A DNA stretch of 41,253 bases from Ruminococcus sp. (GTDB lineage Bacteria; Bacillota; Clostridia; Oscillospirales; Ruminococcaceae), in contig JAFSBM010000047.1 in the NCBI GenBank assembly GCA_017437285.1, positions 1-41,253 on the forward strand, given 5' to 3'. Below the pieces are notes generated by a model. That model saw nothing but the letters and a program-made list of their open reading frames with translations, was not told the origin of the DNA and did not search any database. Below are positions 1-32,934 of the stretch, in pieces. A program made the position numbers and the translations under genes. Numbering within the stretch: position 1 is the stretch's first letter; each line of letters opens with the position of its first letter.

Positions 1-34
1 GGCAATGTCAATGTAAAGGAAAGGACAGATCACT

Positions 35-541
35 ATGAAATACAAACGCTTATATATTGCCTATGGCAGTAACATCAATCTGGAGCAGATGGCATATCGT
101 TGTCCCAACTCCAAGGTTGTGGGAACGAGAATGATTCCGGACTATGAACTGGAATTCAGAGGTGTGGCAACCATTGTTCCAAAGGAAGGTGCAGAGGTTC
201 CTGTTCTGCTCTGGGAAATTGATCAGAGAGATGAACTCTCCTTGGACAGATATGAGGGATTCCCTCGGATGTACCGCAAGGAGCTTTTTGAGGTAGAGGT
301 TGACGGCAAAATCCGTGAGGGCATGGCGTATCTCATGAACTGCGGTGAGATCGCTCCGCCGAGTCCGACATACTACAACGGCATCAAAAAGGGCTATGAG
401 GCCAACGGTATGGACACCTCATATCTGAGAGCTGCCCTTGAACGTGCGGTATATCATGTACAGCATCAGGAACAGGAGGAAGATGAGGATTTCGAAGAAG
501 ATATGGAAGAAACCGATGACATTCAGATGACTTTTGAATAG
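35..541 (+). CDS. Gamma-glutamylcyclotransferase-like protein
   Basis: The N-terminus carries the YGSN loop typical of the gamma-glutamylcyclotransferase (GGCT/AIG2) fold, with YGSNINLEQM at about residues 10-19, and a DRYEGFP segment near residue 71 whose Glu fits the usual catalytic position. The family forms 5-oxoproline from gamma-glutamyl amines or peptides, but many element-borne members are uncharacterised, so the substrate is unknown. The last 25 residues are a strongly acidic tail beyond the catalytic fold. The ATG at 35 follows AAGGA. The gene leads a tight co-directional set (next start at 544) of small proteins that I associate with conjugative-element cargo in Clostridia. The family call is fairly firm; the role is not known. 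Confidence 0.8.
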   Translation: MKYKRLYIAYGSNINLEQMAYRCPNSKVVGTRMIPDYELEFRGVATIVPKEGAEVPVLLWEIDQRDELSLDRYEGFPRMYRKELFEVEVDGKIREGMAYLMNCGEIAPPSPTYYNGIKKGYEANGMDTSYLRAALERAVYHVQHQEQEEDEDFEEDMEETDDIQMTFE

Positions 542-543
542 GG

Positions 544-822
544 GTGATAACTACGAAATATAAGGGCTTTGAAGTGAAGATCACACCGAGCAGACCGTTC
601 CGAGTAAATCGGGACGGTCAATCTGTTCCGTGTGATGGCTTCATGATTGAGATTTATGACAGCAAAGAAAAGAAAAACGCTGTCGACATCATCTATGCAG
701 CAGTCGGCTATGAGCTTCTGGAAAATGATATCCATGAAGCAGAGCAGCTGGCAAAGGATTATATCGACAGCGAAAAACTCGAACTGAGGGAATTGATGGA
801 GGAATATCATGGCGATGAATGA
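544..822 (+). CDS. Small conserved hypothetical protein (92 aa)
   Basis: I do not recognise this family. The protein is 92 aa, mixed alpha/beta in look, rich in Glu, Asp and Lys, and without membrane segments or cysteines. It follows the cyclotransferase stop by two bases, so it is probably co-translated. The listed start is a GTG at 544 that overlaps the only SD-like sequence (AGGGGTGAT), which is an uncomfortable spacing; the real initiation codon may be a little downstream. Its 3' end overlaps the next gene by 14 bp. Context suggests mobile-element cargo. No function is assigned. Confidence 0.65.
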   Translation: MITTKYKGFEVKITPSRPFRVNRDGQSVPCDGFMIEIYDSKEKKNAVDIIYAAVGYELLENDIHEAEQLAKDYIDSEKLELRELMEEYHGDE

Positions 823-1054
823 GAAACCCAAGTGTCCGTTACTTAATGCTGACGGAAACATTTTTAATCTGCTTGGTATGGCAAGCAGGACACTCCGTGA
901 AAACGGTATGAGAGAACAGGCAAAGGAAATGCAAAGCAGAGTGACAGCCTCCGGAAGTTATTCCGAGGCTTTGAGCATTCTTGGCGAGTATGTGGAAATC
1001 TGCTCCGCTGAGGAAATGAACGAAGAACCCGATGAGGGTATGAGCATGATGTAA
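809..1054 (+). CDS. Small hypothetical protein (81 aa)
   Basis: This is an 81-aa acidic protein of unknown function. Its middle (residues about 20-65) looks like a compact helical region, and the C-terminus is a Glu/Met-rich tail. The ATG at 809 follows GGAGG by six bases and overlaps the previous gene by 14 bp, which indicates translational coupling in the 35-1437 operon. There is no signal peptide, cysteine pair or recognisable catalytic motif. It is likely conserved element cargo by context only. Confidence 0.65.
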   Translation: MAMNEKPKCPLLNADGNIFNLLGMASRTLRENGMREQAKEMQSRVTASGSYSEALSILGEYVEICSAEEMNEEPDEGMSMM

Positions 1055-1077
1055 ACCAAAGATATGGAGGAAAGAAT

Positions 1078-1437
1078 ATGATGATTACAAAAGAAACATT
1101 CGTAAAACTGATTACAATGATTATGAACACGATTGATGACAAGAGAGAGTTCATTGAGGACAACGATTATATCCCTGATGAGTGTAAGGATTGCATCTTG
1201 GAGGAATGTGACTTCCTGAAGGATCTGATCACCATGCTTACCTGCATCATGATTGACCGCTTCGGTGTAATCCGTGATTATCTCTACGAGAGAGATGAAA
1301 ATGGCGAATACTTTTTTGGAATTTCCAAGGGCAACAAGATTGAGGTCTATCTGTTGACCTCGCCGGAGGAACTGTACGAATACCTTGCTGAGGAAAGTGA
1401 GGGGTTCAGTTTGATTGCGATGAAAGCACGCTCATAA
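1078..1437 (+). CDS. Hypothetical protein (119 aa)
   Basis: This 119-aa protein is not recognised. It has a helical N-terminal half with a Cys-containing segment (DECKDCILEECDF, about residues 36-48) and a second half predicted as strand-rich. The ATG at 1078 follows a clear GGAGG. It is the last gene of the 35-1437 set. About 15 bp downstream the first TTGCAA/TATAAT promoter of the cassette array begins, so it marks the left edge of that array. The soluble, acidic composition resembles its neighbours. Confidence 0.65.
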   Translation: MMITKETFVKLITMIMNTIDDKREFIEDNDYIPDECKDCILEECDFLKDLITMLTCIMIDRFGVIRDYLYERDENGEYFFGISKGNKIEVYLLTSPEELYEYLAEESEGFSLIAMKARS

Positions 1438-1451
1438 ATTTTCGCAAGCTA

Positions 1452-1480
1452 TTGCAAATTGATCGGGGGTATGATATAAT
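1452..1480 (+). promoter_or_regulatory. Promoter P0 of the cassette array
   Basis: TTGCAA (1452-1457) and TATAAT (1475-1480) are separated by 17 bp. The same boxes and spacing recur in the repeats at 1612, 2230, 3421 and 4911. No ORF of credible size follows before the next terminator at 1583, so P0 drives either an empty cassette or a short RNA. Confidence 0.65.
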
Positions 1481-1582
1481 ATAGAAAAAGAAATGACTAA
1501 GCGGATGACAGCTTAAGTGCTGAAAAGCATGGAAATACGTCGAAAAACGAAGTGATCAATTTCGTCACGTATTGACAATTTC
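1481..1582 (+). other. Gene-less cassette, possible short structured RNA
   Basis: About 100 bp lie between promoter P0 and the terminator at 1583. The only ATG ORF is seven codons long. The stretch holds an imperfect hairpin with AATACGT near 1531 pairing with ACGTATT near 1568, and inner CGAA/TTTCG complementarity. It could be a small RNA or the remains of a lost cassette gene. Confidence 0.3.
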
Positions 1583-1640
1583 CCTCCGATGATTTCATCG
1601 GAGGTTTTTTATTGCAATTATCTGCAAAGTGTGGTATAAT
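1583..1640 (+). repeat. Cassette repeat R1: terminator plus promoter
   Basis: A rho-independent terminator (CCTCCGATG, ATTT loop, CATCGGAGG, T6; 1583-1610) is followed immediately by TTGCAA (1612-1617), a 17-bp spacer and TATAAT (1635-1640), then ATAGGGGTCGGGCAGA. The unit ends one transcript and starts the next, here the acetyltransferase. Copies with nearly the same sequence lie at 2201, 3393 and 4882. Confidence 0.85.
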
Positions 1641-1691
1641 ATAGGGGTCGGGCAGAACGATAAATAAGAATTTGCAGAAAGGAACAATATT

Positions 1692-2135
1692 ATGATAAGG
1701 CATGCAACAATAGCGGATGTATCAAGAATTGCAGAAATATTGATTTTCGCAAAGAGAATGAATTATAGAAATATTTTTAAGAATGATAAAGTGTCCTTCG
1801 GAGAAATGCAAGTATACCCATTGGCAAAAAGATATATTGATAATTCAAATGAATTGAAGGGAATGTGGGTTTATGATGACGAATTTGTTAAAGGAGTTAT
1901 AAACATTAATGGAAAACAGATTGTAGAATTGTATGTAGATTCATTTTTTGAAAATCAAGGTATTGGCAGTATACTTATAAAATATGCTATTGAGCAATTG
2001 GATTGTGATTTCTTATGGGTTCTTGAAAAGAATATAAAAGCCATACGATTTTATCAAAAACATGGTTTTGTGATTACAGAAGAAAAACAATATGAAAGAG
2101 GCACAATAGAATATATTGTAAAAATGAAGAGATAA
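1692..2135 (+). CDS. GNAT family N-acetyltransferase
   Basis: The 147-aa length and the acetyl-CoA-binding motif A (FFENQGIGSILIKYAI, about residues 85-100) are typical of single-domain GNAT enzymes. The later part (KAIRFYQKHGFVI) matches the usual motif B strand and helix. GNATs move an acetyl group from acetyl-CoA to an amine; the acceptor here is unknown, though small cassette-borne GNATs often protect against antibiotics or toxins. The ATG at 1692 follows GAAAGGAA. The gene stands alone between two copies of the terminator-promoter repeat, so it has its own transcript. It is more AT-rich than the genes at 35-1437, which suggests a separate origin. Confidence 0.9.
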   Translation: MIRHATIADVSRIAEILIFAKRMNYRNIFKNDKVSFGEMQVYPLAKRYIDNSNELKGMWVYDDEFVKGVININGKQIVELYVDSFFENQGIGSILIKYAIEQLDCDFLWVLEKNIKAIRFYQKHGFVITEEKQYERGTIEYIVKMKR

Positions 2136-2200
2136 ATTCTAATTTATAAAACCGAACATATTCTTAAATGTCATCTATTTTGAGCAAGACAGACAATTTA

Positions 2201-2285
2201 CCTCCGATGTTTTCATCGGAGGTTTTTTATTGCAATTATCTGTAAAGTGTGGTATAATATAGGAGGTCGGACAGACCGAAAAAAA
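2201..2285 (+). repeat. Cassette repeat R2: terminator, promoter, hairpin leader
   Basis: The terminator is at 2201-2228 (CCTCCGATG/CATCGGAGG, T6), with TTGCAA at 2230-2235 and TATAAT at 2253-2258 (17-bp spacer). The leader GGTCGGACAGACC begins a few bases after the -10 box and can fold as GGTC/GACC. The 35 bp upstream (TCATCTATTTTGAGCAAGAC and following) are also shared with R3, so the duplicated unit is about 115 bp. Confidence 0.85.
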
Positions 2286-2313
2286 GAATTTGATGAAGTG
2301 AGGATACAAGATA

Positions 2314-2565
2314 ATGAGTACACCAAATGAATTGCTGAATAATTTAGATAAGTTACATACAACAGAATTGGGTGTTGTTCGAATAAAAAGAAATCTGTCA
2401 TTAGATACAGATGATGTTGTCGGATGGTGTAGAGATAAAATCAAATTAGATAATGCTGTTATCACGAGAAATGGAAAGAACTGGTATATCAATATAGATG
2501 CTTGTATAATAACTGTAAATGCATATAGTTATACCATTATAACAGCTCACAAGGAGAAAAGATGA
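2314..2565 (+). CDS. DUF3781-like protein
   Basis: This 83-aa protein matches my recollection of DUF3781: an N-terminal helix, an RIKRNL segment, and a C-terminal strand-rich half (WYINIDACIITVNAYSYT, about residues 60-77). The function of the family is unknown. The start ATG at 2314 follows a GTGAGGA SD. Its stop overlaps the ATG of the GyrI-like gene (ATGA at 2562), so the two are translationally coupled and form one two-gene cassette under R2. The pair may act together, but nothing in the sequence shows how. Confidence 0.7.
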   Translation: MSTPNELLNNLDKLHTTELGVVRIKRNLSLDTDDVVGWCRDKIKLDNAVITRNGKNWYINIDACIITVNAYSYTIITAHKEKR

Positions 2566-3032
2566 ATTATAGAATTTGTGAACTGGAGTCTTTTTCGGTG
2601 ATTGGACAAGAAATCGAACTTACCAATAGACAAAAAGAAAATATTCAAATATGTGTAGATTTTTGGCGTAAATTTAATAATAACCTCAAAAAAGCATATT
2701 TATCACAATCAGGAAATTGGATTAAATATGCTTTTATGGAAAGAAGAGAAGACAAATTATTTTATTGCTGTGCAATACCACGAAAAATAGTAGTTCTAGA
2801 GGGGTTTGTTTCAAAAGAAATTGCTTCGTGCAAATACATGGTTGTTGAGCATATTGGTTCTATGGATAAGATATACGAAACTTATAGTAAAATCTATAAA
2901 GAAATATTACCTAATACGGAATACATACCAATGCAAGAGAGTTTTCTGCATTTTGAAAGATATGACTATCGCTTTCATTGGAATAGAGAAAATTCAATTA
3001 TTGAGATTTGGTTACCAATTAGGGATAGTTGA
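2562..3032 (+). CDS. GyrI-like / effector-binding domain protein
   Basis: The 156-aa protein has the architecture of a stand-alone GyrI-like (AraC effector-binding, SHS2) domain. It opens with an ICELESFSVIGQEIEL-type strand, has a central FVSKEIASCKYMVVEHIGSM stretch, and ends with a YRFHWNRENSIIEIWLPI strand in the place of the family's final strand. Such domains bind small molecules or proteins, and some protect gyrase or detoxify drugs. There is no DNA-binding domain. It is co-translated with the DUF3781-like gene (4-bp overlap, GGAG in the preceding coding end). The fold call is moderately confident; the ligand is unknown. Confidence 0.7.
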   Translation: MNYRICELESFSVIGQEIELTNRQKENIQICVDFWRKFNNNLKKAYLSQSGNWIKYAFMERREDKLFYCCAIPRKIVVLEGFVSKEIASCKYMVVEHIGSMDKIYETYSKIYKEILPNTEYIPMQESFLHFERYDYRFHWNRENSIIEIWLPIRDS

Positions 3033-3146
3033 CTTTATATAATGCTGAGAACTTGAAAGCAACGTGAACTTTCAGCTTTGTGAAGAGTTGAACGCACGCG
3101 ATTATTTGTATTTGTCGCTTTGATTGTTGCAGAAAAGAGGATGATT

Positions 3147-3298
3147 ATGGTTGAGCTAAATATAGAGGAGTACATTTGCAGAGAATTATCATCGGAAGAA
3201 CAAAAAGTTGCAATGAGCTTTGTTTCTTAAAAGATAAGCATCTTACTTTTTACAAGGATAATGGTGCTTATTGGAAAGAGATAAGTAATAGACCTTAA
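3147..3298 (+). pseudogene. Frameshifted remnant of a small cassette gene
   Basis: An ATG at 3147 with AAAGAGG upstream opens a 27-codon ORF that stops at 3228-3230. A second frame continues the same protein seamlessly from about 3224 (FLKDKHLTFYKDNGAYWK and onward) to a TAA at 3296-3298. Read together these give roughly 50 aa resembling the start of a DUF3788-type protein, but cut short. The frameshift near 3222 and the missing C-terminus indicate decay. The 3033-3146 stretch upstream shows no other gene. Confidence 0.5.
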
Positions 3299-3392
3299 AA
3301 ACTATCCAATACTACAAATTCCAATTTGTCGAACTGAATATTATTACATAGCCATTTTAATGTCATCTATTCTGAGCAAGACAGACAATTTC

Positions 3393-3476
3393 CCTCGATG
3401 ATTTCATCGGAGGTTTTTTATTGCAATTATCTGTAAAGTGTGGTATAATATAGGAGGTCGGACAGACCGAAAAAAA
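3393..3476 (+). repeat. Cassette repeat R3: terminator, promoter, hairpin leader
   Basis: This is nearly identical to R2 over about 115 bp, starting at the TGTCATCTATTCTGAGCAAG block near 3361. The terminator left arm has lost one base (CCTCGATG at 3393-3400, right arm 3405-3413). TTGCAA is at 3421-3426, TATAAT at 3444-3449, and the leader carries the same GGTCGGACAGACC. Confidence 0.85.
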
Positions 3477-3503
3477 TATGCATTTGAAAGTGAGATGAAA
3501 ATT

Positions 3504-3671
3504 ATGAATAATGAAGTAAAGGAAGTTATTGAAAAAATTAAAGAGGTAAAAGATATATTAAAAGAATTTGCTGACAAAGATGAAGCAATAGGGTATCTTA
3601 TTAATGAAACAAAATTATCAAAAGAGGAATGTGCTGCTGCATATGATATTATTATGAAAATTAAAGATTAA
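3504..3671 (+). CDS. Small helical hypothetical protein (55 aa)
   Basis: This is a 55-aa, Lys/Glu-rich, probably all-helical protein. The residues from VKEVIEKIKEVKDILKEF look amphipathic, followed by a second helix pair. The ATG at 3504 was chosen because AGTGAG lies nine bases upstream; an in-frame ATG at 3495 overlaps that SD. It sits alone behind repeat R3 and ahead of the next promoter at about 3697. I do not recognise the family. Its size and helical character would suit an antitoxin or immunity protein, but that is a guess. Confidence 0.55.
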   Translation: MNNEVKEVIEKIKEVKDILKEFADKDEAIGYLINETKLSKEECAAAYDIIMKIKD

Positions 3672-3720
3672 ATCCGAATTTATCAAACTGAACTATAATA
3701 TAGGCGGTCTGACAGAGAAA
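3672..3720 (+). promoter_or_regulatory. Second-type cassette promoter P4
   Basis: AATTTATCAAACTGAAC followed by TATAATATAGG and GGTCTGACAGA. The same block (AATTTATCAAACTGAAC, TATAATATAGG) recurs at 4110-4138. It keeps the -10 and part of the leader of the R-type repeats but lacks the CCTCCGATG terminator and has no good -35 box. Confidence 0.5.
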
Positions 3721-3742
3721 TAAGAATTTATGGAGGTGTAAT

Positions 3743-4072
3743 ATGCACGGTTATCAAATCAAATTATTATGGAAAAAACTGATTGAGATTCACGGCTTGA
3801 TTTTATCTCAGAATTGGATACAACTAAAACGTGTTGCCGTAATCTCAGATGAAACGATTGAAGAAGCAAAAATAGAGATAGAAGCATATCCTGGAAGTAT
3901 GACAGAATGTCCATATGATGAATTTACTGATGCGGTCACAATCAATTCATTTGACGGCAGGAATGCAGATTGTATGGCATACTTCTGGTTTGATGACGAG
4001 GAAAGCGATTTATCAATGGACTGTACAGCCGAATTCCATGGCAGAGAGATGAAACGCATATACATAAATTAA
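3743..4072 (+). CDS. DUF7668-like small protein, putative immunity protein
   Basis: This is a 109-aa acidic soluble protein. The second half carries a MAYFWFDDEESDLSMDCT stretch (about residues 73-90) that resembles the Trp-Phe-Asp and SDL-[ST] signature I associate with DUF7668-type proteins found among polymorphic-toxin immunity genes. The family assignment is from memory and tentative. The ATG at 3743 has a strong GGAGGTG SD. It is a single-gene cassette behind promoter P4 and ahead of the related block at 4110. There is no membrane segment or signal. Confidence 0.6.
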   Translation: MHGYQIKLLWKKLIEIHGLILSQNWIQLKRVAVISDETIEEAKIEIEAYPGSMTECPYDEFTDAVTINSFDGRNADCMAYFWFDDEESDLSMDCTAEFHGREMKRIYIN

Positions 4073-4106
4073 ATTCATGTGTTTTAATTGGTTCTATTAG
4101 TTAATC

Positions 4107-4145
4107 AAAATTTATCAAACTGAACTATAATATAGGCTGAGGGAC
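4107..4145 (+). promoter_or_regulatory. Second-type cassette promoter P5
   Basis: AAAATTTATCAAACTGAAC then TATAATATAGG at about 4124-4135, matching the P4 block at 3680-3705. It lies 40 bp upstream of the DUF4303-like gene. The following leader (CTGAGGGACTGAAAA) has diverged from the hairpin leader of R2 and R3. Confidence 0.5.
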
Positions 4146-4175
4146 TGAAAATATGAGTAAAAGGAGTGTATAACT

Positions 4176-4874
4176 ATGAGTATCATAAAAATTGAAGAAA
4201 TAGAAGAATTGATGTATCAATCTTTCAAAAAGGCGATAATTGACTTTTCAAAGACGGAAAATAATAAGGACGTTTATGCTGTTGTTTTTGACTGCGATTT
4301 ATCCAATTTTAGTGTTTGTATCAGGTATGCCAACGAGAATGATTATGAAAAGCGTTTGATTAATTATGACAAATATGCATATATGTATAAGCCGTATGGA
4401 AAGAAAGGTCTTTTGGGTTATAAGTACAATTCAGTTGGCGACTTCAATCGGATAGAATGGGAAGCAGATTCGGCAATAAAGCATTTTTTTAATAGTTGTC
4501 GCTGCCAGTCAACAGATGCTGTTTACTATGAAAATGCAGACAGACCTGCTGATACCTTTGAGTATAAAGGTGCAATTTTCAGAGGTGATGTACAAACAGA
4601 GCTTTTACATTGTTGTAATGGAGAGTTCCAAAAGGACGGCGAGTTCTTTATAGGGCTTGCTTCTGAATTGTCAGATGTGTTTGGGGAACTTATTATTAAC
4701 TGTATACAGCGTCTTAAAGATGACGACCTTGGACTTGACAAGACAGATAATTTCATTGTGTTTATGAGTGACCACGACATAAGCAATGCGACATTTGCCG
4801 AATATGTTAGTCGAACAGTTGATAAAAATATATTTGACCAACTTACTGACTACTCGAATTTTGAGCAGGAATGA
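4176..4874 (+). CDS. DUF4303-like protein, putative immunity protein
   Basis: The 232-aa protein resembles DUF4303. It has an N-terminal helix (IEEIEELMYQSFKKAIIDF), then a strand with VYAVVFDCDLSNFSVCIRYA at about residues 32-51, a Trp-containing middle (RIEWEADSAIKHFF), and a late FIVFMSDHD strand near 189. DUF4303 genes are frequent in toxin-immunity loci, so immunity is a reasonable inference rather than a shown function. The ATG at 4176 follows AAAAGGAG. The last codons and the stop run directly into repeat R4: the TTTTGAGCAGGAATGACAAT at the gene end is homologous to the sequence that precedes the R2 and R3 terminators, so the cassette joint lies inside the C-terminus. Confidence 0.7.
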   Translation: MSIIKIEEIEELMYQSFKKAIIDFSKTENNKDVYAVVFDCDLSNFSVCIRYANENDYEKRLINYDKYAYMYKPYGKKGLLGYKYNSVGDFNRIEWEADSAIKHFFNSCRCQSTDAVYYENADRPADTFEYKGAIFRGDVQTELLHCCNGEFQKDGEFFIGLASELSDVFGELIINCIQRLKDDDLGLDKTDNFIVFMSDHDISNATFAEYVSRTVDKNIFDQLTDYSNFEQE

Positions 4875-4881
4875 CAATTCC

Positions 4882-4940
4882 CCTCCGATATTTTCATCGG
4901 AGGTTTTTTATTGCAATCGTTTGCGATGCGTGGTATAATA
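4882..4940 (+). repeat. Cassette repeat R4: terminator plus orphan promoter
   Basis: The terminator is at 4882-4909 (CCTCCGAT/ATCGGAGG, T6), with TTGCAA at 4911-4916 and TATAAT at 4934-4939 (17 bp). The leader expected after the -10 box is missing because a MITE-like inverted-repeat element begins at the last bases of TATAAT. Any transcript from R4 would enter that element. Confidence 0.8.
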
Positions 4941-5100
4941 TTGCTCCACCAACTAAACCTTGCCGTCAAATACTCGACATAAAGAAAATTTCTCTGCGTC
5001 AGAAAAGCTTGAAATGCGGTAGCATTCCTGCGTTTTTCTTCCTTGATAAATTTCCTTTCTGCCTTCGTCTTTTTGGCAAGGTTTAATTGGTGGAGCAATA
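4939..5100 (+). mobile_element. MITE-like element 1 (162 bp)
   Basis: The ends are 25-bp inverted repeats with one mismatch (4940-4964 and 5075-5099, beginning ATTGCTCCACCAA). They are flanked by TA on both sides, as expected for TA-targeting (IS630/Tc1-mariner-like) non-autonomous elements. The interior has no credible gene. The left end abuts TATAAT of R4. It would also form a long RNA hairpin if transcribed. Confidence 0.65.
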
Positions 5101-5186
5101 AAATCTGAAAAAATTGTTACACATTGGACTTGTAATGCGAGTAAATATTATGAAAGCACTTGATATATTAAAAAGGAGTGATTGTT

Positions 5187-5768
5187 TTGACTGATACTCA
5201 ATACGCACTGCTATATTCCGTTTCACCTGCAAATGCCCATACAGCGTTGTTTAACGAATATTTCAACTACGTTTATTCAATAGTTTTCAACAAGCTGAGA
5301 AGCTGCGGTACAAAAGAGGATATAGAAGAATGTGTGTCTGATGTATTTGCGGCAGTTTTTGAGAAATACGAGAAAAACGGTTTCAGCAGCGGTTCGCTGA
5401 ATGGGCTGATAGGCACAATTGCAGCAAATAAGGCAATAAGCTATTTCCGTTCATTATCGGCAAAGAGCAAATACACAGCGGAAATTGATGAAACAGCCTT
5501 ATCTGAAATAAGCGATGATGAATTATTAGTGGAAAATGCGGAGAAAAAGGAACTGAAAGATATTCTGCTAAGCTGTGTGAATGCCCTCGGTGAGCCTGAT
5601 TCCACAATGATTATCCAGAAATATTATTACAATATGAATTCTTCACAGATAGCGGAGCAACATTCATTGACCTCGGCAGGGGTGAGAATGCGTTGTGCAA
5701 GAGCGTTAAAAAAGCTTGAAAAAATGCTCTCTGAAAAGGGATTCGGATTAAAGGAGTGCAGCTTATGA
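5187..5768 (+). CDS. ECF-type RNA polymerase sigma factor
   Basis: The roughly 193-aa protein has sigma region 2 (FNEYFNYVYSIVFNKLRS, then EDIEECVSDVFAAVFEKY) and a C-terminal region 4 helix-turn-helix (YYYNMNSSQIAEQHSLTSAG with VRMRCARALKKL). This two-domain length is typical of ECF sigma factors. The TTG at 5187 is preferred because AAAAGGAG lies eight bases upstream; the GTG at 5178 touches the SD. The stop overlaps the ATG of the downstream membrane protein (ATGA at 5765), the usual arrangement for an ECF sigma factor and its regulator. The trigger is unknown. Confidence 0.9.
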   Translation: MTDTQYALLYSVSPANAHTALFNEYFNYVYSIVFNKLRSCGTKEDIEECVSDVFAAVFEKYEKNGFSSGSLNGLIGTIAANKAISYFRSLSAKSKYTAEIDETALSEISDDELLVENAEKKELKDILLSCVNALGEPDSTMIIQKYYYNMNSSQIAEQHSLTSAGVRMRCARALKKLEKMLSEKGFGLKECSL

Positions 5769-7054
5769 GTGACAAAAGAGAAATAAGCTTCGATATTCTT
5801 GAAAATACGGATATTGAAACCGTGGAAAAGCTTGAAAGGGATATTCCTATGGTAAGCGAAAAGGATAGAAACAGAATTTTTGAAATGAGCCTGAAAAAGT
5901 TTGAAAGCGGAATGAATAAGAGTATTGACGGCGATAATGAAAGTGAAAATGTTGGGGTAGATATAAACGATGAGGAATTTATTGTAAGCGGAGTTGAAAA
6001 ATACAGTAAGCCAAAAATGTCAAAGGCAGCGGCAGCATTCATCGGTACTGCGGCGGCATTGGCAATAACCATTTCGGGTATCTGGGCATTTTCCCATAGC
6101 AATAACAAGATTGACGAACCTATGCAGGACAGCACTTCAACATCTTCATACGAGGAAAAGCCCTCGAAACTTACCCTCCGTTATGCACAGGACAGAGTGT
6201 TGGGGAATATCTCTGAACAAATGTGCAGTTATAGTTTGTTTGATGTCAATAAAGATGATGTCCCCGAACTCATTGTGAACTGTAAAACTACCAAAAACAG
6301 CTATTTTTCGGACTTTTACTATTTCAACGGAATTGATTATGTTCGGGAAATAACTCTCGCCTCCGATACAGATGAAAAAATTGAACTTCGTGGCGTAATT
6401 AAATGCAATGAAGCTGAAAATCTCATATGGTGCGAACATCACGAAGAAAGCGGCAATGCAGTCTATAAAATGAACGGAGATAATACCTTTGAAAGTATGG
6501 GCTGTTTTGAGGATGATGATGAGTTTCTTACAAGCAGGGAGTGGATTGATTTCAAGGAAGGGTACAGTGAAGAAGAAGCGGGCAGTATCTCCGTTCGTCC
6601 GCAGGAAATACACGACCTTGCAAGGAACAATCTGCTTGAAACTTTATCAGCTAATCAATATTGTTCTGTGGTGGAATATGCTTATTGTGAGATAAATTCA
6701 GACGGCACACCTGAGCTTATAATAAACTTTGAAAATATGTCAGGCAATAAATTTTCTTCTCTTTACTTTTTCAACGGAGCCGATTACCTTAATGCAGCAG
6801 GTGAAACTGAAAAAGGCGTTATTTCTAATATAACAGGCAATCTCCGTTTCTGCCCCTTTGAAAGTCTTATCTGGTGTGAACATCAGAATAGTGGGGAGTA
6901 TTCAGTTTATAAGATGAATTATGACAACACTTTTGAATTAAAGGATACCATTGAAGAACCTGATACCGCCAATGTTAATAATCAGCTTGGTTCTTTGTAT
7001 AATCACTACAACAATAAGGAATGGATTAACATTGAATTTACGCCTTATAAGTAA
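5765..7054 (+). CDS. Membrane-anchored anti-sigma-like protein with duplicated ectodomain
   Basis: About 90 cytoplasmic residues precede one transmembrane segment (AAAAFIGTAAALAITISGIW, about residues 90-110), then a Ser/Thr linker and an extracellular part. The extracellular part contains two related modules. Each has a DVNKDDVPELIVN-type motif (second copy EINSDGTPELIINF), a YFFNGADY strand and an LIWCEHxxSGxxxVYKMN strand, giving an internal duplication. The topology and the 4-bp overlap with the sigma gene suggest an anti-sigma or sensor role. The cytoplasmic part lacks a recognisable zinc-type anti-sigma motif, so that role is inferred. The ATG at 5765 has AAGGAG upstream; an in-frame GTG at 5756 is less likely. 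Confidence 0.7.
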   Translation: MSDKREISFDILENTDIETVEKLERDIPMVSEKDRNRIFEMSLKKFESGMNKSIDGDNESENVGVDINDEEFIVSGVEKYSKPKMSKAAAAFIGTAAALAITISGIWAFSHSNNKIDEPMQDSTSTSSYEEKPSKLTLRYAQDRVLGNISEQMCSYSLFDVNKDDVPELIVNCKTTKNSYFSDFYYFNGIDYVREITLASDTDEKIELRGVIKCNEAENLIWCEHHEESGNAVYKMNGDNTFESMGCFEDDDEFLTSREWIDFKEGYSEEEAGSISVRPQEIHDLARNNLLETLSANQYCSVVEYAYCEINSDGTPELIINFENMSGNKFSSLYFFNGADYLNAAGETEKGVISNITGNLRFCPFESLIWCEHQNSGEYSVYKMNYDNTFELKDTIEEPDTANVNNQLGSLYNHYNNKEWINIEFTPYK

Positions 7055-7068
7055 TATTTCACCCTCTG

Positions 7069-7092
7069 AAAGCCCGAATTTTCGGGCTTTTC
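7069..7092 (+). terminator. Terminator after the sigma/anti-sigma operon
   Basis: AAAGCCCGAA pairs with TTCGGGCTTT (7069-7090), ending in a short T run, 15 bp after the stop of the membrane protein. Confidence 0.85.
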
Positions 7093-7147
7093 CGTTGAGA
7101 AAAAGTAAATCGTGGTGTATTGCTGTTGGAATTTTTATATTTACGCA

Positions 7148-7176
7148 TTGACAAGCGTGAATATGTATGGTATAAT
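7148..7176 (+). promoter_or_regulatory. Consensus promoter for the redox/ArsR operon
   Basis: TTGACA (7148-7153), 17-bp spacer, TATAAT (7171-7176), 44 bp ahead of the ATG at 7220. A perfect sigma-A-type promoter like this is often repressed; the ArsR gene in the operon is a candidate autorepressor. Confidence 0.85.
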
Positions 7177-7219
7177 AATAACGTGATATATATAAACTTA
7201 TCTATATGAGGTGGTACAT

Positions 7220-7654
7220 ATGAAAAAATCAGAACTTGCAGCGGAATTATTTTCACAGGGATTCAACTGCTCTCAAAGTGTATTTGCGGTATTTGCGGAA
7301 AAATACGGCATAAGTCAGGAGCTTGCACTAAAAATCGGCTGCGGATTTGGCGGCGGAATGAGAAATGCTGAAATCTGCGGTGCTGTATCGGGAGCCGTTA
7401 TGGTTATAAGCCTGCGATACGGTCATTCCGAGGGCAGCGATAACGACAGCAAATCCCTGTGCTACGCTAAAACAAAGGAATTTACGGAGCAGTTTAAGGC
7501 AAAAAATAACAGCATTATATGCCGTGATTTGCTTGGAATTGACATATTTAAAGGTGACGGAATGAAAATTGCAGGGGAAAAGGGTTTATTCCAGACTGCC
7601 TGCGTTGATATGATTAAAAGTGCCGTTGAGTTACTGGAAGAATTGGGGTACTGA
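7220..7654 (+). CDS. C_GCAxxG_C_C family redox-type protein
   Basis: The conserved cysteine pattern of the C-GCAxxG-C-C family is visible: NCSQSVF near residue 20, IGCGFGGGM near 44-52, ICGAVSGAVMVI near 57-68, and later single Cys residues (LCYAK, ICRDLLG, TACVD). The length of 144 aa is normal. The family is thought to be redox-active or metal-related, with no firmly known reaction. The ATG at 7220 follows GAGGTGG; the GTG at 7211 overlaps that SD. It is followed two bases later by an ArsR regulator and then a Cys-rich small ORF, which suggests a metal- or thiol-responsive operon. Confidence 0.85.
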   Translation: MKKSELAAELFSQGFNCSQSVFAVFAEKYGISQELALKIGCGFGGGMRNAEICGAVSGAVMVISLRYGHSEGSDNDSKSLCYAKTKEFTEQFKAKNNSIICRDLLGIDIFKGDGMKIAGEKGLFQTACVDMIKSAVELLEELGY

Positions 7655-7655
7655 T

Positions 7656-7928
7656 ATGGACTATGCAAGAATTTTTAAGGCTTTGGGAGATAAAAGCCGC
7701 CTTGAAATTGTGGAAATGCTGGCAGGCGGTGAGAAATGTGCCTGCAAGCTGCTTGAAAAATTTAATTTTTCACAGCCCACTTTGTCCCACCATATGAAAA
7801 TCCTTTGCGACAGCGGAATTGTCGCAAGCCGAAAAGAGGGGAAATGGATGTATTATAGCCTTTCAGATGATTCTGTCAGGGAGATAATCGGATTTTTGAA
7901 AAAATTAACTAAGGAGATAGAAAAATGA
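7656..7928 (+). CDS. ArsR/SmtB family transcriptional regulator
   Basis: A 90-aa winged-helix protein with FKALGDKSRLEIVEMLAGG at about residues 6-24, a CAC motif (EKCACKLLEKF) in the alpha-3 position where ArsR-type metal-sensing cysteines lie, and a recognition helix QPTLSHHMKILCDSGIV followed by the wing GKWMYYSL. The CxC points to thiol-reactive metal or metalloid sensing. It begins two bases after the upstream gene and its stop overlaps the next ATG (ATGA at 7925). It probably autoregulates the promoter at 7148. Confidence 0.92.
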   Translation: MDYARIFKALGDKSRLEIVEMLAGGEKCACKLLEKFNFSQPTLSHHMKILCDSGIVASRKEGKWMYYSLSDDSVREIIGFLKKLTKEIEK

Positions 7929-8098
7929 AATTTTACAGAAATGAGCTTGAATGTTGTCCGAAAACCACTTGCAAAAACAACGGAAACTGCAAGGACTGCA
8001 TAATGAAACACAAGGCTACAGACAGCCTGCCATACTGCCTTTTTCCCGATAATGACGGGGATAAGAGTCTTAAGGGCATCTCTAAAAACCCCTTTTGA
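7925..8098 (+). pseudogene. Cys-rich small protein truncated by a MITE
   Basis: The ORF overlaps the ArsR stop (ATGA). It encodes about 49 native residues with ECCPKTTCKNNGNCKDC, MKHKA and LPYCLFP, a pattern resembling the small Cys-rich DUF6485-type proteins (tentative, probably metal-binding). At 8070 a 166-bp inverted-repeat element interrupts it; translation now ends within the element at 8096-8098. The original 3' end is recognisable after the element at 8236-8280, in a frame reading HFYEKLGEYLSDKD then TAA. The protein has therefore lost its C-terminal 15 or so residues and gained a short foreign tail; it could retain some function. Confidence 0.65.
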
Positions 8099-8235
8099 GA
8101 AAAAACAGCTATGCACGTCATCTGCTTCGTCAACCTCCCTTGGAGTGCGACAGCACGCCTGCGGAAGGTTTCCTTACAGCTGCCATACCTATCTGTTTTT
8201 TCTTTAATCAAACGGGTTTTTAGAGATGCCCTTAA
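8070..8235 (+). mobile_element. MITE-like element 2 (about 166 bp)
   Basis: Perfect 22-bp terminal inverted repeats (8070-8091 and 8214-8235, beginning TTAAGGGCATCTCTAAAAAC) enclose about 120 bp without a gene. The terminal TTAA or TA may be the target duplication. It splits the Cys-rich ORF. An 11-base match to its end (TAGAGATGCCC) also lies at 9848-9858. Confidence 0.8.
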
Positions 8236-8388
8236 ACACTTCTATGAAAAGCTTGGGGAATATCTTTCCGATAAGGATTAACTTTCACAATTTTTCACTT
8301 TAGGCTGTTTTATGTGAAAATTATATCACAAAGAATTTTTCAATTTTTAACATTCACCGCATTTTAGTTTCACAAAAGACGGGTATAC

Positions 8389-8394
8389 TATAAT
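8389..8394 (+). promoter_or_regulatory. Probable -10 box for htrA
   Basis: TATAAT at 8389-8394, 43 bp upstream of the chosen ATG. A TTTCAC at 8368-8373 could serve as a -35 with a short 15-bp spacer. Upstream, TTTTCAC and GTGAAAA form an imperfect dyad near 8292-8323 that might be an operator. Confidence 0.45.
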
Positions 8395-8437
8395 CATCAA
8401 AGGGAAAGAAATTTCCACGAAAGGAAAAGTGATTAAT

Positions 8438-9844
8438 ATGAATGAATACAATTTCAACATTGAAGAAGAAAATGGATACTACCACGATGAAAATCCTGAT
8501 AACAAGCCTAAAAAACGTACAGGCTTAAAGGTTGTGGCATCTCTTGTGGCTATGACTCTTGTTTCAGCAGGTTCAATCGGAGTTTACCGCACAGTTACCG
8601 AGGGAAATGCTCCCGACAAGGAAATCTCACAGTCAGAGGATGAAAAGCCTGAAAAGTCCGATAAATCCGATTCATCAAAGGCTGATTCCACCGATTCTAA
8701 GGAAACTACAACAATTTCCAATATGAACTCAATCAACATCAATGAAAACAACACAGATATGAAAGTTCTTACAACAGAGGAAGTTGTAGCAAAGGTTATG
8801 CCAGCTGTTGTTGGTATCAAATCAGAATTTGTAATTGAACAGCAGCAAAACGGCAATAATTACGGCGGATATGGTGATTTTGGCGGTTTCGGAGGATTTG
8901 GCGACTTTGGCGATATTTTCGGCTTTGGTGACAGCTTCGGCGGCGGAAATTACGGCGGACAGACACAGCCTGAAAATGCTATTGGCACAGGTACAGGCGT
9001 TGTTTTTGATGAAACAGGTTATATTGTAACAAATGCCCACGTTATTTACGACAGCCAGAGCGGACTTGGTTTAGCTGATGAAATACAGGTGCTTGTGAAC
9101 GATGAAACATACACAGCAGGGGTTATCGGCTATGATGTTGACTGTGACCTTGCGGTGCTGAAAATTGCCGCAGAGGGACTTGTGGCAGCAGAATTCGGCG
9201 ACAGCGATAAGCTTAATCTTGGCGAAGATGTAACAGCTATCGGAAATCCTCTTGGACTTGACCTTATGAATACAGTTACAAAGGGCATTGTTTCAGGACT
9301 TAACAGAAATGTTACAATCAACGACAAGTCAATGAGCCTTATTCAGACTGATACAGCTATAAATGAGGGTAATTCAGGCGGTCCTCTCATTAACAAATAC
9401 GGTCAGGTTATCGGCATCAATTCCTCAAAAATGTCAAGCAGCGGACTTGGTTCAGCTTCAGTTGAGGGTATCTGCTTTGCAATTCCCTCAAATAAAGTAT
9501 CAGATGTAGTGGAGGATTTCAAGAATTACGGCTTTGTCAAGGGCAAGCCACAGCTTGGTATCAGCTGCCGTGACGTAACAGAGGACGTTTCAGAGCTTTA
9601 TGATATGCCTCTTGGCGTGTATGTAGTGGAAGTGACAGAGGGCAGTGCAGCAGAGGCGGCTGGTCTTAAAAAGAGCGACATTATTATAGCAGTTGACGAT
9701 GTAACAGTAAAGACTTCATCTGAACTGACAGCACAGAAAAATCTCCATAAGGCAGGAGATGAAATAAAGGTGACATTTATGAGAAACGGTGAGAAAATGA
9801 CAGTAACTCTCATTCTCGGCGAAGCAGAAGCTCCCGTTGAGTAA
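8438..9844 (+). CDS. HtrA/DegP-like membrane-anchored serine protease with PDZ domain
   Basis: The order is a 27-residue cytoplasmic N-terminus, one TM segment (about 28-50), a Ser/Asp/Glu-rich linker, a trypsin-like S1C domain, and a C-terminal PDZ domain (about 370-465). The catalytic triad is visible: His201 in TNAHVI, Asp237 in DCDLAVLKI and Ser313 in NEGNSGGPLI. This family degrades or refolds misfolded exported proteins at the cell surface. An unusual insertion of about 40 residues before the protease core is made almost only of Gly, Phe, Asp and Tyr (GGYGDFGGFGGFGDF and onward). The ATG at 8438 is preferred over the GTG at 8429, which lies too close to AAGGAA. It stands alone, ending in the terminator at 9875. 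Confidence 0.93.
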   Translation: MNEYNFNIEEENGYYHDENPDNKPKKRTGLKVVASLVAMTLVSAGSIGVYRTVTEGNAPDKEISQSEDEKPEKSDKSDSSKADSTDSKETTTISNMNSININENNTDMKVLTTEEVVAKVMPAVVGIKSEFVIEQQQNGNNYGGYGDFGGFGGFGDFGDIFGFGDSFGGGNYGGQTQPENAIGTGTGVVFDETGYIVTNAHVIYDSQSGLGLADEIQVLVNDETYTAGVIGYDVDCDLAVLKIAAEGLVAAEFGDSDKLNLGEDVTAIGNPLGLDLMNTVTKGIVSGLNRNVTINDKSMSLIQTDTAINEGNSGGPLINKYGQVIGINSSKMSSSGLGSASVEGICFAIPSNKVSDVVEDFKNYGFVKGKPQLGISCRDVTEDVSELYDMPLGVYVVEVTEGSAAEAAGLKKSDIIIAVDDVTVKTSSELTAQKNLHKAGDEIKVTFMRNGEKMTVTLILGEAEAPVE

Positions 9845-9874
9845 TATTAGAGATGCCCATTATAAAATAACGAA

Positions 9875-9905
9875 AATACCGCACAATTTCACGTTGTGCG
9901 GTATT
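9875..9905 (+). terminator. Bidirectional terminator between htrA and the XRE-AbrB operon
   Basis: AATACCGCACAA pairs perfectly with TTGTGCGGTATT (12 bp, 8-base loop). It sits between convergent genes, with A-rich and T-rich flanks on either side. Confidence 0.8.
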
Positions 9906-9925
9906 GGTGTTTTATGGTCATTATA

Positions 9926-10357
9926 TTATTTTTCGCCGTGAATAAGATTCATAAACTCCTGCATTTTAGCTTCATAAAATTCGGCAGGCAGCAGGGCAAT
10001 TCCTATTTCATCGCTCAACACAATCAAGCGGCTTCCTGTTTCCAATCCGAATTTTTCACGTGCCGCTTTGGGAATGACAATCTGCCCACGGTCGCCGATA
10101 TTTACCGAACCCCAGATATTTTTTCCGATAGGTGCAGGGGGAAGCACTCCTAAATCCGCTTGTACTCCGTCTTTCATAAGGCTGTCAAGGGTAACTCCGT
10201 ACAATTCAGCAAGTACAGCCGCTTTTTCAATATCGGGAACAGTCTGTCCGTTTTCCCATTTTGCATATGCCTGACGGGAAATATTAATTTTCTCCGCAAT
10301 CTGTTCCTGTGAATAGCCGTTCAGCTTTCGCAGCACAATGAGATTTTCTTTCAGCAT
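9926..10357 (-). CDS. XRE-HTH and AbrB-type fusion regulator
   Basis: The 143-aa protein joins an XRE helix-turn-helix (about residues 5-58, YSQEQIAEKINISRQAYAKW) to an AbrB/SpoVT-like swapped-hairpin domain (about 80-125, NIGDRGQIVIPKAAREKFGL). Two DNA-binding folds in one chain suggest a dimer reading two sites. It is the last gene of a minus-strand operon after an ABC permease and ATPase, with 12 bp between the permease stop and its ATG. Its probable target is the operon promoter at 11767-11795. GntR-type regulators are the commoner partner of this kind of exporter, so the fusion is a variation. Confidence 0.9.
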   Translation of the reverse strand: MLKENLIVLRKLNGYSQEQIAEKINISRQAYAKWENGQTVPDIEKAAVLAELYGVTLDSLMKDGVQADLGVLPPAPIGKNIWGSVNIGDRGQIVIPKAAREKFGLETGSRLIVLSDEIGIALLPAEFYEAKMQEFMNLIHGEK

Positions 10358-10369
10358 AAAATCAACTCC

Positions 10370-11020
10370 TTATAAATCAATAATTTCAAATCTTCTGCAC
10401 GATGTTTTATAGCCGATAATTGTCAATATTGCGTAAATTGCCGCACCTGCCGACAGAAGAATAAGCTGCAAACCAAGATGCTCCGTGCCAAAGGCATTGA
10501 CAGGGGAAAGATTGGGGATATGATGTGCAGTTTCGGCAATTCCGATTGTCAGAAATGTGGCAATAATATAGCTGACAAATGGCGTGAATTTATATGCCGT
10601 TTTGAAAAAACCTGCAATAAAAACGAGGTTGAACAGCCCGAAAATTATCAGAGCCATTCCGAGAAAAAAAGGATTTGCATTCATCAGTGCATTCTCACGG
10701 TAGGGTGCAGCTTCTGAAAAAACTGTCATTCGCAGTATTGTCAGCACCGCCATAACAAGAAATCCTGCCATTTCAATCATAATGGAAAAGATAAATTTTC
10801 CCTTGACAACATCACGCTTTGCAATGGGGAGAAGTATCGTATATACAATATCATTCGCCTCTCTTGCATTCTGAAAACTGTAAAATATTCCAAGAGTTAC
10901 AAAAAATGCTCCGCATAAAACGGGATACCCAGGAATAAGCGTCATTGCTCCAGCCACAATAAAAATATATGTCAAAACCGAAGCACTGAGGCGTATTTCT
11001 TTTTTCATAAGTGCTTTCAT
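10370..11020 (-). CDS. ABC-2-type transporter permease
   Basis: A 216-aa hydrophobic protein with about six transmembrane stretches, starting MKALMKKEIRLSASVLTYIF in the manner of small ABC-2 permeases. The N-terminal amphipathic KKEIRLS precedes the first TM. Its ATG overlaps the stop of the ATPase gene by 4 bp (ATGA), so the two subunits are co-translated. The likely complex is two permeases with two ATPases, exporting an unknown substrate such as a peptide or drug. It is regulated with the XRE-AbrB gene that follows. Confidence 0.85.
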   Translation of the reverse strand: MKALMKKEIRLSASVLTYIFIVAGAMTLIPGYPVLCGAFFVTLGIFYSFQNAREANDIVYTILLPIAKRDVVKGKFIFSIMIEMAGFLVMAVLTILRMTVFSEAAPYRENALMNANPFFLGMALIIFGLFNLVFIAGFFKTAYKFTPFVSYIIATFLTIGIAETAHHIPNLSPVNAFGTEHLGLQLILLSAGAAIYAILTIIGYKTSCRRFEIIDL

Positions 11021-30234: not shown

Positions 30235-30576
30235 TCATTTGGCTTCTTTTCTTTTAGCTTCTGCCTCAAGCAACTCCATTATAAGATATTCCACTTTTCC
30301 TTTATCACGTTCAGATAAACATCGCCAATTATGCAATAAATTATGTTCATCTTCATCGAGAAATTGTTCATTCTCATATCTGTTACGCTCTGCAAGGTAA
30401 TCAAGACTAACCCCATAATACTCAGCGAGTTGAATTGCTCTTGAAAATGGAAGTTCACGTTCCCCTTTTTCATATTTTCCATAATACTGTGCTGTTGTGC
30501 CTAAATATTCGGCAACTTCTGTCTGCGTTTTGTCAGTGTCTTCTCTTAGATCTCGAATTTTCTTATACCAAGCCAC
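30235..30576 (-). CDS. XRE-family transcriptional repressor
   Basis: A 113-aa protein with an N-terminal Cro/CI helix-turn-helix (about residues 8-60; TQTEVAEYLGTTAQYYGKYE, LPFSRAIQLAEYYGVSLDYL) and a charged helical tail. The GTG at 30576 is chosen because GAAAGGAG lies eight bases upstream; the GTG at 30585 touches that SD. It is divergent from the large HTH regulator at 30843. The shared 260-bp region holds two palindromic CACATGTG sites, the likely operators for this repressor, flanking a consensus promoter. Confidence 0.85.
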   Translation of the reverse strand: MAWYKKIRDLREDTDKTQTEVAEYLGTTAQYYGKYEKGERELPFSRAIQLAEYYGVSLDYLAERNRYENEQFLDEDEHNLLHNWRCLSERDKGKVEYLIMELLEAEAKRKEAK

Positions 30577-30605
30577 AAATGACACTCCTTTCTATAGATA
30601 TTTTA

Positions 30606-30615
30606 TCACATGTGA
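30606..30615. promoter_or_regulatory. Palindromic operator site 1
   Basis: TCACATGTGA, a perfect 10-bp palindrome with semi-symmetric flanks (TTA/TAA). It lies 11 bp upstream of the plus-strand -35 box and within the leader of the divergent XRE gene. A partner lies at 30669. Confidence 0.65.
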
Positions 30616-30625
30616 CTAAAAAATA

Positions 30626-30654
30626 TTGACTTTTCAGCCTAAATAGATTATAAT
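30626..30654 (+). promoter_or_regulatory. Plus-strand promoter between the two operators
   Basis: TTGACT (30626-30631), 17-bp spacer, TATAAT (30649-30654). It points toward the regulator at 30843 but lies almost 190 bp upstream of it; a second -10 box lies nearer at 30794. The two palindromes bracket it on both sides, so occupancy would block it. Confidence 0.7.
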
Positions 30655-30668
30655 ATAACTATACCTAA

Positions 30669-30678
30669 CCACATGTGA
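30669..30678. promoter_or_regulatory. Palindromic operator site 2
   Basis: CCACATGTGA with the same perfect CACATGTG core as the site at 30606, and flanks TAA and TTA. It lies about 15 bp after the plus-strand -10 box. Confidence 0.65.
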
Positions 30679-30790
30679 TTATATAACTGTAAACTTAATG
30701 AATCTTGGATAGCATAATCGAACATAGTTGAGTTGCACAAGTGGTTGCATTACTATTTTTTTCCAAACTATATCGTAATAATTCGTGACA

Positions 30791-30799
30791 TGTTATAAT
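30791..30799 (+). promoter_or_regulatory. Extended -10 promoter for the large HTH regulator
   Basis: TGTTATAAT, an extended -10 element, about 45 bp ahead of the start codon. There is no strong -35 box, which suits an activator-dependent or weak promoter. Confidence 0.5.
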
Positions 30800-30842
30800 A
30801 AAACCAAATAGATTCGTTTTTATTTAACTGGGGGTGATGGAG

Positions 30843-32216: not shown

Positions 32217-32249
32217 GTAAAATTAAAAAGATATATATTATATATTGAA

Positions 32250-32360: not shown

Positions 32361-32411
32361 CACTCTTTAATTGGAGTGTATAAAGTTTTAAATACAAGGA
32401 GTGAATCTTAT

Positions 32412-32909: not shown

Positions 32910-32934
32910 CCATTTAGATGAGAAGGTGAAAAAA

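Follow-up and report, generated by a model that had tools for sequence, protein, structure and literature searches.

Why do small, unrelated genes stand in a row between copies of one short repeat block in a clostridial genome? The question is raised by a 41,253-nucleotide stretch of Ruminococcus sp. DNA (assembly GCA_017437285.1, contig JAFSBM010000047.1), hereafter the window, in which a sequence-only reading had seen an array that gains and loses cassettes between terminator-promoter repeats. Taken as a whole, the data are best explained if the array in the window belongs to a mobile gene-cassette system found in Ruminococcus and its relatives, and we consider this probable. A cassette would usually consist of one open reading frame (ORF), sometimes two, with its ribosome-binding site, a leader half-site on the left and a tail half-site at the stop codon on the right. 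Cassettes would be inserted, exchanged and lost in expression slots built as terminator, promoter, leader, cassette, tail and terminator; such slots lie behind tRNA genes, behind the ends of elements resembling integrative and conjugative elements (ICE-like elements) and elsewhere, some of them multiplied in tandem. The explanation is built on the anatomy of the cassettes, the varied contents of one orthologous site, the recurrence of the same cassette across arrays and across two genera, and homology that is confined to the cassette in several pairs.

A repeat finder run on positions 1–9000 returned, unprompted, one direct repeat in four copies (R1 to R4, at 1574–1679, 2192–2297, 3383–3488 and 4873–4978), R2 and R3 having an additional upstream match (2164–2204 vs. 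3356–3396, 93%). The promoter boxes TTGCAA-N17-TATAAT are exact at 1612, 2230, 3421 and 4911, so the four copies of hairpin terminator plus promoter described earlier were recovered; a fifth exact pair of boxes lies at 1452. Genome-wide, TTGCAA-N15-19-TATAAT was found in 109 copies on both strands of 4.13 Mb and the backwards-read pattern in 3; the density in the array is 5 per 3.5 kb vs. ∼0.09 expected from the genome average. The window array is contiguous, whereas the compared genomes are drafts with many units ending at contig borders. Below, Gnnn:Cnnn denotes genome and contig, G000 being the genome of the window itself, and Lnnn a fetched stretch of DNA. The parts of the array are as follows.

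1583–1640, + strand: R1 terminator hairpin and promoter TTGCAA-N17-TATAAT (sequence, repeat finder, pattern scan)
1629–1679, + strand: leader of cassette 1 (leader model)
1692–2135, + strand: cassette 1, GNAT acetyltransferase (Pfam)
2134–2158, + strand: tail of cassette 1
2168–2195, + strand: M module, ending ..TTTTGAGCAAGACAGACA (alignment); M also ends ICE-like elements in L119, L071 and L072
2201–2258, + strand: R2 terminator hairpin and promoter (sequence, repeat finder, pattern scan)
2247–2298, + strand: leader of cassette 2 (leader model)
2314–3032, + strand: cassette 2, DUF3781 (2314–2565) overlapping a GyrI/Cass2-like gene (2562–3032) (Pfam)
3316–3340, + strand: tail of cassette 2, with ∼280 bp without a long ORF before it
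3360–3387, + strand: M module after cassette 2
3393–3449, + strand: R3 terminator hairpin and promoter (sequence, repeat finder, pattern scan)
3438–3490, + strand: leader of cassette 3 (leader model)
3504–3671, + strand: cassette 3, 55-aa ORF without a Pfam family at E 0.01 or better
3670–3736, + strand: short junction of cassette 3 tail, TATAATATAGG and cassette 4 leader
3743–4072, + strand: cassette 4, DUF7668, also in G000:C174 and G066 (Pfam, DNA comparison)
4102–4150, + strand: short junction of cassette 4 tail, TATAATATAGG and a degenerate leader
4176–4874, + strand: cassette 5, 232-aa ORF
4852–4876, + strand: M-like end across the stop codon of the 232-aa ORF (sequence reading and alignment)
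4882–4939, + strand: R4 terminator hairpin and promoter; a 162-bp inverted-repeat element and then a sigma-70-family gene come next

Alignment of 50 copies indicated that the repeat block is modular and consists of M (ending ..ATGTCATCTATTTTGAGCAAGACAGACA), terminator, promoter and leader. The leader, TATAATATAGGAGGTCGGACAGACCGATAAATAAGAATTTG, lies immediately 5' of the ribosome-binding site, which is followed by the ORF. The tail, AAATTCCAATTTRTCGAACTGAATATTATTACATAGCC, often lies over the stop codon and is not present in every cassette; in several solo cassettes it continues into a terminator of its own, GCCGTTTGTGACTAACAATCACAGACGGC. The junctions between cassettes fall into three grades. 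Those in G000:C174, G013:C17 and G034:C101 are compact and promoterless, those at window 3670 and 4102 have just a −10 box, and those of the third grade combine M, terminator and promoter. Since the two short junctions of the window (repeat family D3) lack a terminator, the 55-aa, DUF7668 and 232-aa genes share a single R3–R4 slot and are not insulated from one another. It had been proposed that each gene group carries its own promoter and is insulated from its neighbours; some genes are indeed preceded by a terminator and promoter, and the proposal does not hold within the R3–R4 slot. At three places M and a terminator come almost immediately after a promoter-like sequence, and no gene intervenes (L086 2550, L084 1040 and L091 7072, the last on the − strand); these may be emptied units.

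We scanned 706 kb in 87 stretches with matrices built from 25 leaders and 26 tails. The 86 leaders, 84 tails and 38 M modules obtained, against 1, 1 and 0 reversed, are partly given by construction, because the matrices came from the same set. The stretches had been fetched for matching the repeat, the leader or an element gene, and some of them hold the same cassette in different genomes; because they were chosen by match, counts within them are not frequencies. Contexts were counted for the 77 of 86 leaders with at least 16 bits. An ORF started within 50 nt in 61 of the 77, and a tail was present at −5 to +60 nt of the stop of that ORF in 36.

The orthologous site is a tRNA-Gln(TTG) locus with Gly and Cys tRNAs upstream and a convergent GNAT gene downstream (Pfam-checked in G000). 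Its slot contains one NUDIX cassette in G093, one nitroreductase cassette in G122, two cassettes with ORFs of 202 and 171 aa in G043, and four cassettes in G000 (pyrophosphatase, NUDIX and two ORFs reading as membrane proteins). Pairs among the four genomes are 94–98% identical from the tRNA through the leader and 85–91% past the slot, and the gene sets differ, the NUDIX gene being common to two of the four. G093 and G122 agree at 98.3% in the 174 bp that begin with the tRNA and at 90.7% past the cassette, with nothing alignable between. The NUDIX cassettes of G000 and G093 are 95.3% identical over 655 bp; the right flank of the same pair is 85.1% identical. Differing content between identical repeats, proposed earlier as the test of a cassette array, was thus observed in four genomes with conserved flanks.

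The same cassettes were also found in other surroundings. The DUF7668 cassette of the window is 96.9% identical to a copy in a second array of its own genome (G000:C174) that has other neighbours: another cassette before it at a compact junction, and M and an element end after it. A further copy, in G066, is 96.2% identical over 315 bp and lies directly behind tRNA-Gln(CTG). In G075, an element end of the window type is followed by the same terminator, promoter and leader and then by a different GNAT gene. Between G043 and a genome of another genus, the promoter, the leader and the first 192 bp of the gene are 95.0% identical over 280 bp, and a contig end cuts the match. We compared 16 pairs of shared cassettes with 600 bp of flank available. 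Homology was limited to the cassette in six pairs (two of which have one member in common), starting at −18 to +18 of the leader and ending within 60 nt of the stop codon; one pair was confined at the right with a contig end at the left, two were slightly wider, and two gave no DNA match over the cassette. On these comparisons, gene turnover at the slots is well supported. The repeat being a single-locus promoter, or having no link to gene turnover, is not what was found. Of the repeat-bounded array first proposed, the gain and loss of genes stands; the unit of exchange looks like an ORF with its leader and tail, and not like the 115-bp block.

The flanks of the tRNA-Gln(TTG) slot also suit another explanation, in which ordinary expression units undergo RecA-type homologous recombination or gene conversion between short promoter-leader and tail-terminator segments, with no dedicated recombinase. 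The left flank (tRNA, terminator, promoter and leader) is near-identical over ∼175 bp and the right flank is conserved too; furthermore, the search for tyrosine recombinases tied none to the arrays and folding gave no hint of attC-like sites (both described below). We judge this main rival rather unlikely. Shared cassettes are also found in arrays whose promoters and terminators differ, and there the stretch in common, judged by eye, comes down to some tens of bases or less; promoterless compact junctions are present in L070, L085 and L257, and cassettes have been exchanged across genera.

The mobile-cassette explanation would place the exchange at the cassette ends. Leader and tail are imperfect inverted repeats: in 39 cassettes the mean duplex energy was −9.6 kcal/mol vs. 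−5.6 kcal/mol (standard deviation 0.33) for letter-shuffled tails (39 of 86 leaders were used, after removal of further cassettes with an identical protein start and of those whose tail scored below 5 bits). Three compact junctions contain a single core, GTCGRACAG, and expanded junctions contain two similar cores (GTCGAACTG in tails and GTCGGACAG in leaders). A single core is the outcome that would be expected of one crossover between a tail and a leader. A fourth compact junction (L257:7069) deviates from the GTCGRACAG core.

The repeat block and the leader are not restricted to the window. The R2 block has strong matches elsewhere in its own genome (e.g., G000:C42, C161 and C150), and 17 of 60 genus genomes, counting that one, matched it at E ≤ 0.001. 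A sequence-only leader model with strict filters gave 75 copies in 15 of 125 genus genomes; beyond the genus, leaders matched in 7 of 196 other family genomes (197 with the own one), belonging to six genera. A scan of genome contigs detected one exact-pattern copy in a Ruminococcus metagenome-assembled genome from sheep rectum (JAFXEJ010000013.1), and neither the leader nor M had an exact match in viral contigs. Being untranslated, leader and tail might form a duplex in mRNA, as in a regulon of unrelated, immobile host genes with common conserved 5' and 3' untranslated regions. This is hardly credible: it is contradicted by the different genes at the one orthologous tRNA-Gln(TTG) slot, by near-identical cassettes at different places, and by the presence of leaders in just those 15 genus genomes.

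The array of the window begins directly behind an element end, which has two parts.

1078–1437, + strand: last gene of the ICE-like element; homologues mark the same element end elsewhere (10 of 120 genus genomes, own included)
1452–1577, + strand: end of the ICE-like element, with a promoter (1452–1480) and an untranslated-looking stretch ending ..AGTGATCAATTTCGTCACGTATTGACA (M', 1551–1577)

Window 1–1437 is the end of a mobile element that, from a reading of its gene neighbourhood, may be termed ICE-like; relaxase and mobilisation families were found by Pfam in G000:C145 and at window 39606. Among 13 of the 17 rows with the same end gene (4 on the other strand were left out), 9, including the window, end in M' (..GTATTGACA or a variant), 1 in M and 3 in neither. 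Unrelated terminators lie directly after the element end in L118, L121, L123, L127 and L129. The opposite element end (TCTATATGTGACG..) has a tRNA CCA directly before it in G000:C63; in C145 the CCA is replaced by a tRNA-3'-like stretch, and in C174 by M. From these positions, M, M' and tRNA 3' ends look like equivalent boundaries. Slots and ICE-like elements have the right end M in common; the left end (terminator) is unlike the left end of the partner. The upstream neighbour was a tRNA gene within 110 bp for 12 of the 77 leaders, M for 14 and M' for 2. In some arrays the terminator comes directly after the tRNA CCA and replaces M (tRNA-Pro, -Gln with two anticodons, -Trp and -Tyr; ARAGORN), and one array lies behind a Met-like tRNA 3' end (by reading).

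Such boundaries could also arise if terminator, promoter, gene and M together formed a tiny non-autonomous element that accretes at tRNA 3' ends via the integrase of ICE-like elements, leader and tail being mere untranslated regions. This second rival is consistent with M and M' as ends of ICE-like elements, with the same left-end variants behind tRNA CCA or M, with the three positions of the opposite element end, and with arrays that start behind tRNA genes. We nevertheless consider it unlikely: at tRNA-Gln(TTG) the gene changes and the promoter and terminator stay, many cassettes have no M, and compact junctions have neither M nor a terminator. A combination, in which accretion multiplies the slots and leader/tail exchange changes the genes, is likely.

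Several further observations concern the ICE-like ends. Just before the terminator, L071 (9770–9900, − strand), L072 (10660–10790, − strand), L119 and the window (1480–1577) have conserved RNA-like stretches that seem to be untranslated and finish in M or M'; folding of M and element-end RNA gave inconsistent z-scores of −0.1 to −3.0. In L071 a large serine recombinase (388–2088, − strand; Resolvase and Recombinase in Pfam) lies by a tRNA-3'-like stretch, and the other end of the ICE-like element comes immediately after it, a tandem build-up of different elements at one site. L072 (G000:C2) carries a group II intron with a reverse-transcriptase-like ORF (∼8690–10448, − strand) shortly downstream of the M end. 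A second mobile-element-like gene stretch, related to G000:C145, occupies window 30235–41253 at the right end of the contig; its genes include a NikA/MobC-type mobilisation protein at 39606 (Pfam) and, by reading, helix-turn-helix and Sel1-type repeat proteins.

We also compared the arrays with integrons. Most of the cassettes contain one ORF, their functions are varied, and relatives differ in what the arrays contain; the GyrI-like protein of cassette 2 has as its top Pfam match Cass2, the 'Integron-associated effector binding protein'. Such features would fit an integron in decay, in which attC sites are clustered and the integrase is missing (CALIN). None of 60 genus genomes, the own one among them, has an integron integrase (TIGR02249) above cut-off; sub-cut-off matches were present in 58 of the 60 and also in 14 of 14 control genomes. 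Folded on the given strand only, none of four compact junctions reached a z-score below −2 (best −1.14), so they were not stabler than shuffles. By eye, the ends are unlike attC boxes. A CALIN is very improbable; the array behaves as an integron would, yet two hallmarks of integrons, IntI above cut-off and hairpin-forming junctions, were not found.

The folding result weighs against the mobile-cassette explanation too, and so do the following points. A search for tyrosine recombinases (phmmer; at most three long ORFs from each fetched recombinase locus served as queries, and ORFs of the window and of 31 array stretches as targets; serine recombinases were not searched) tied no recombinase to the arrays, in line with the earlier remark that the window has no integrase. 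A tail was missing near the stop of the chosen ORF for 41 of the 77 leaders. The pairing of a leader with its own tail was no better than with swapped tails (p = 0.17, 39 cassettes), and coevolution within the cassette was not significant. Because every cassette has a conserved leader, the left border cannot be placed to the nucleotide. The upstream neighbour was classed as 'other' for 44 of the 77 leaders. Five of the 16 shared-cassette pairs match far past the cassette, which suggests that these travelled inside larger elements or are orthologous. No empty slot was detected in the fetched DNA by a pattern scan for a promoter directly before a tail terminator or M. Finally, leaders were present in 8 of 10 genomes with the element end gene vs. 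5 of 110 without it (Fisher p = 6e-8; genomes up to G119 taken as the 120), an association and not proof, because the genomes are related and ancestry confounds it.

The recombinase search itself returned four matches, in L075, L094 and L096 (two). Pfam identified two of them as phage integrases, each a single case: the one in L075 is encoded ∼2 kb away from a leader, the one in L096 next to a sequence resembling a tRNA 3' end. The L094 match has no Pfam family, and the query ORF that gave the 133-aa match in L096 is not necessarily a recombinase. With regard to unoccupied sites, the downstream flank of the tRNA-Pro array matched in its own genome only (1 of 120), with no empty site, and a slot was not seen within the 400 bp read at tRNA-Gln(TTG) in 14 further genomes.

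For the mobile-cassette explanation we propose that exchange would be carried out by a recombinase acting on the leader and tail half-sites. It may be supplied in trans by the associated ICE-like elements, as slots and elements have the M end in common and both have a boundary directly behind a tRNA CCA. The system would give its host a shifting repertoire of small adaptive and immunity genes, and every newcomer would come directly under a sigma-A-type promoter. We suggest tentatively that this is a dedicated cassette capture and expression system of the Ruminococcaceae, independent of integrons, with inverted half-sites, a promoter per slot, arrays seeded at tRNA genes or carried by ICE-like elements, and a recombinase in a novel role.

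The contents of the cassettes are diverse. Among 59 distinct ORFs behind leaders, 30 were run against Pfam in addition to the window genes, some of them with a leader but no tail. The families were peptidase S51, pyrophosphatase, NUDIX (two), GNAT, nucleotide kinases, DUF4279, DUF6557, chromate transporter, alpha/beta hydrolase and glyoxalase (each with one above and one below cut-off), short-chain dehydrogenase/reductase, nitroreductase, metallo-beta-lactamase fold, SnoaL, flavodoxin, DUF4379 and a partial aminoglycoside 3-N-acetyltransferase family; 4 of the 30 had no Pfam family. Immunity families (YezG-like, WapI-like, SUKH-1, SUKH-3 and barstar) made up 5 of the 30. In the window, Pfam agreed with the labels GNAT, DUF3781, GyrI-like and DUF7668. 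DUF4303, once assigned to 4176–4874, was absent from the Pfam matches up to E = 1; this 232-aa ORF, which extends into the R4 repeat block, gave no Pfam or NCBIfam family at E 0.01 or better and no PADLOC family at 0.001. PADLOC had no match for the six window genes.

In a plasmid and phage search only the DUF3781-GyrI pair gave a strong match (one Enterococcus faecium plasmid and one faecal scaffold); apart from that pair, the best 20 of the 28 plasmid records at E up to 1 were short matches. The pair is 73–76% identical at the DNA level in the human faecal scaffold L258 (MT837531.1) and the E. faecium plasmid NZ_CP065930.1. On L258 the next genes are again small and unrelated, possibly with diverged leader-like and tail-like sequences.

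Two small elements and a sigma factor gene were noted next to the array. The 162-bp element at 4939–5100 has 26-bp inverted ends and interrupts the R4 promoter region. A different element of 166 bp at 8070–8235, also with 26-bp inverted ends, belongs to a dispersed family with 93–96% identical copies in G000:C150, C174 (two), C2 and C121. The sigma-70-family gene (regions 2 and 4, Pfam) at 5178–5768 adjoins the array; relatives with 40–51% protein identity lie within ∼2 kb of cassettes in several other genomes (L079, L086, L218/L220 and L219). An Rfam search of window 1–9000 gave nothing but one sub-threshold match.

Integrons are the textbook bacterial device for collecting and expressing stray genes. 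If the mobile-cassette explanation is true, gut and rumen Clostridia would have a second device with integron logic and different ends, and cassette collecting would have arisen more than once. It would also hold a reservoir of easily overlooked small mobile genes, including immunity proteins, NUDIX proteins, acetyltransferases and a partial ORF of the aminoglycoside-acetyltransferase family. The leader sequence is a simple handle for finding new cassettes and makes the question of the driving recombinase testable.

A description of this system was not found among the literature matches listed, which consist of open titles and abstract starts, with subscription papers and preprints largely outside. 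Integrons are reported from several phyla including Firmicutes and are particularly prevalent in Proteobacteria; their cassettes are mostly single ORFs, driven by a promoter in front, some with a promoter of their own (PMC8618304). Integrons and CALINs resemble the arrays described here in mostly single-ORF cassettes, variable content and a promoter in front. In the arrays here, by contrast, no IntI exceeds the cut-off, compact junctions do not form stable hairpins, the units are separated by a recurring promoter and terminator, the ORF has conserved ends on both sides, and some arrays are located at tRNA 3' ends and ICE-like element ends.

Polyimmunity loci are variable arrays of immunity genes, thought to form one message and sometimes lying beside XerC/D-type recombinases (Zhang et al., 2012, PMC3482391). 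They share with the present arrays variable content that includes immunity proteins (here SUKH, YezG-like, WapI-like and barstar); here, in contrast, immunity proteins are 5 of 30, a genome has several arrays, and terminator and promoter (judged by sequence alone) stand between units. The pdif modules of Acinetobacter plasmids are small gene modules between short XerCD recombination sites (28-bp XerC/XerD). They are alike in the small modules and the short bounding sites, but leader and tail, compared by eye, do not look like 28-bp XerC/XerD sites, and the arrays here lie on chromosomal and element contigs of Ruminococcus. Accretion of ICEs and cis-mobilizable elements (CIMEs) at tRNA genes shows the same tandem build-up behind tRNA 3' ends and the same sharing of element ends (here M). 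The units described here, in contrast, are of one or two genes, and their genes also change within a fixed promoter-terminator slot.

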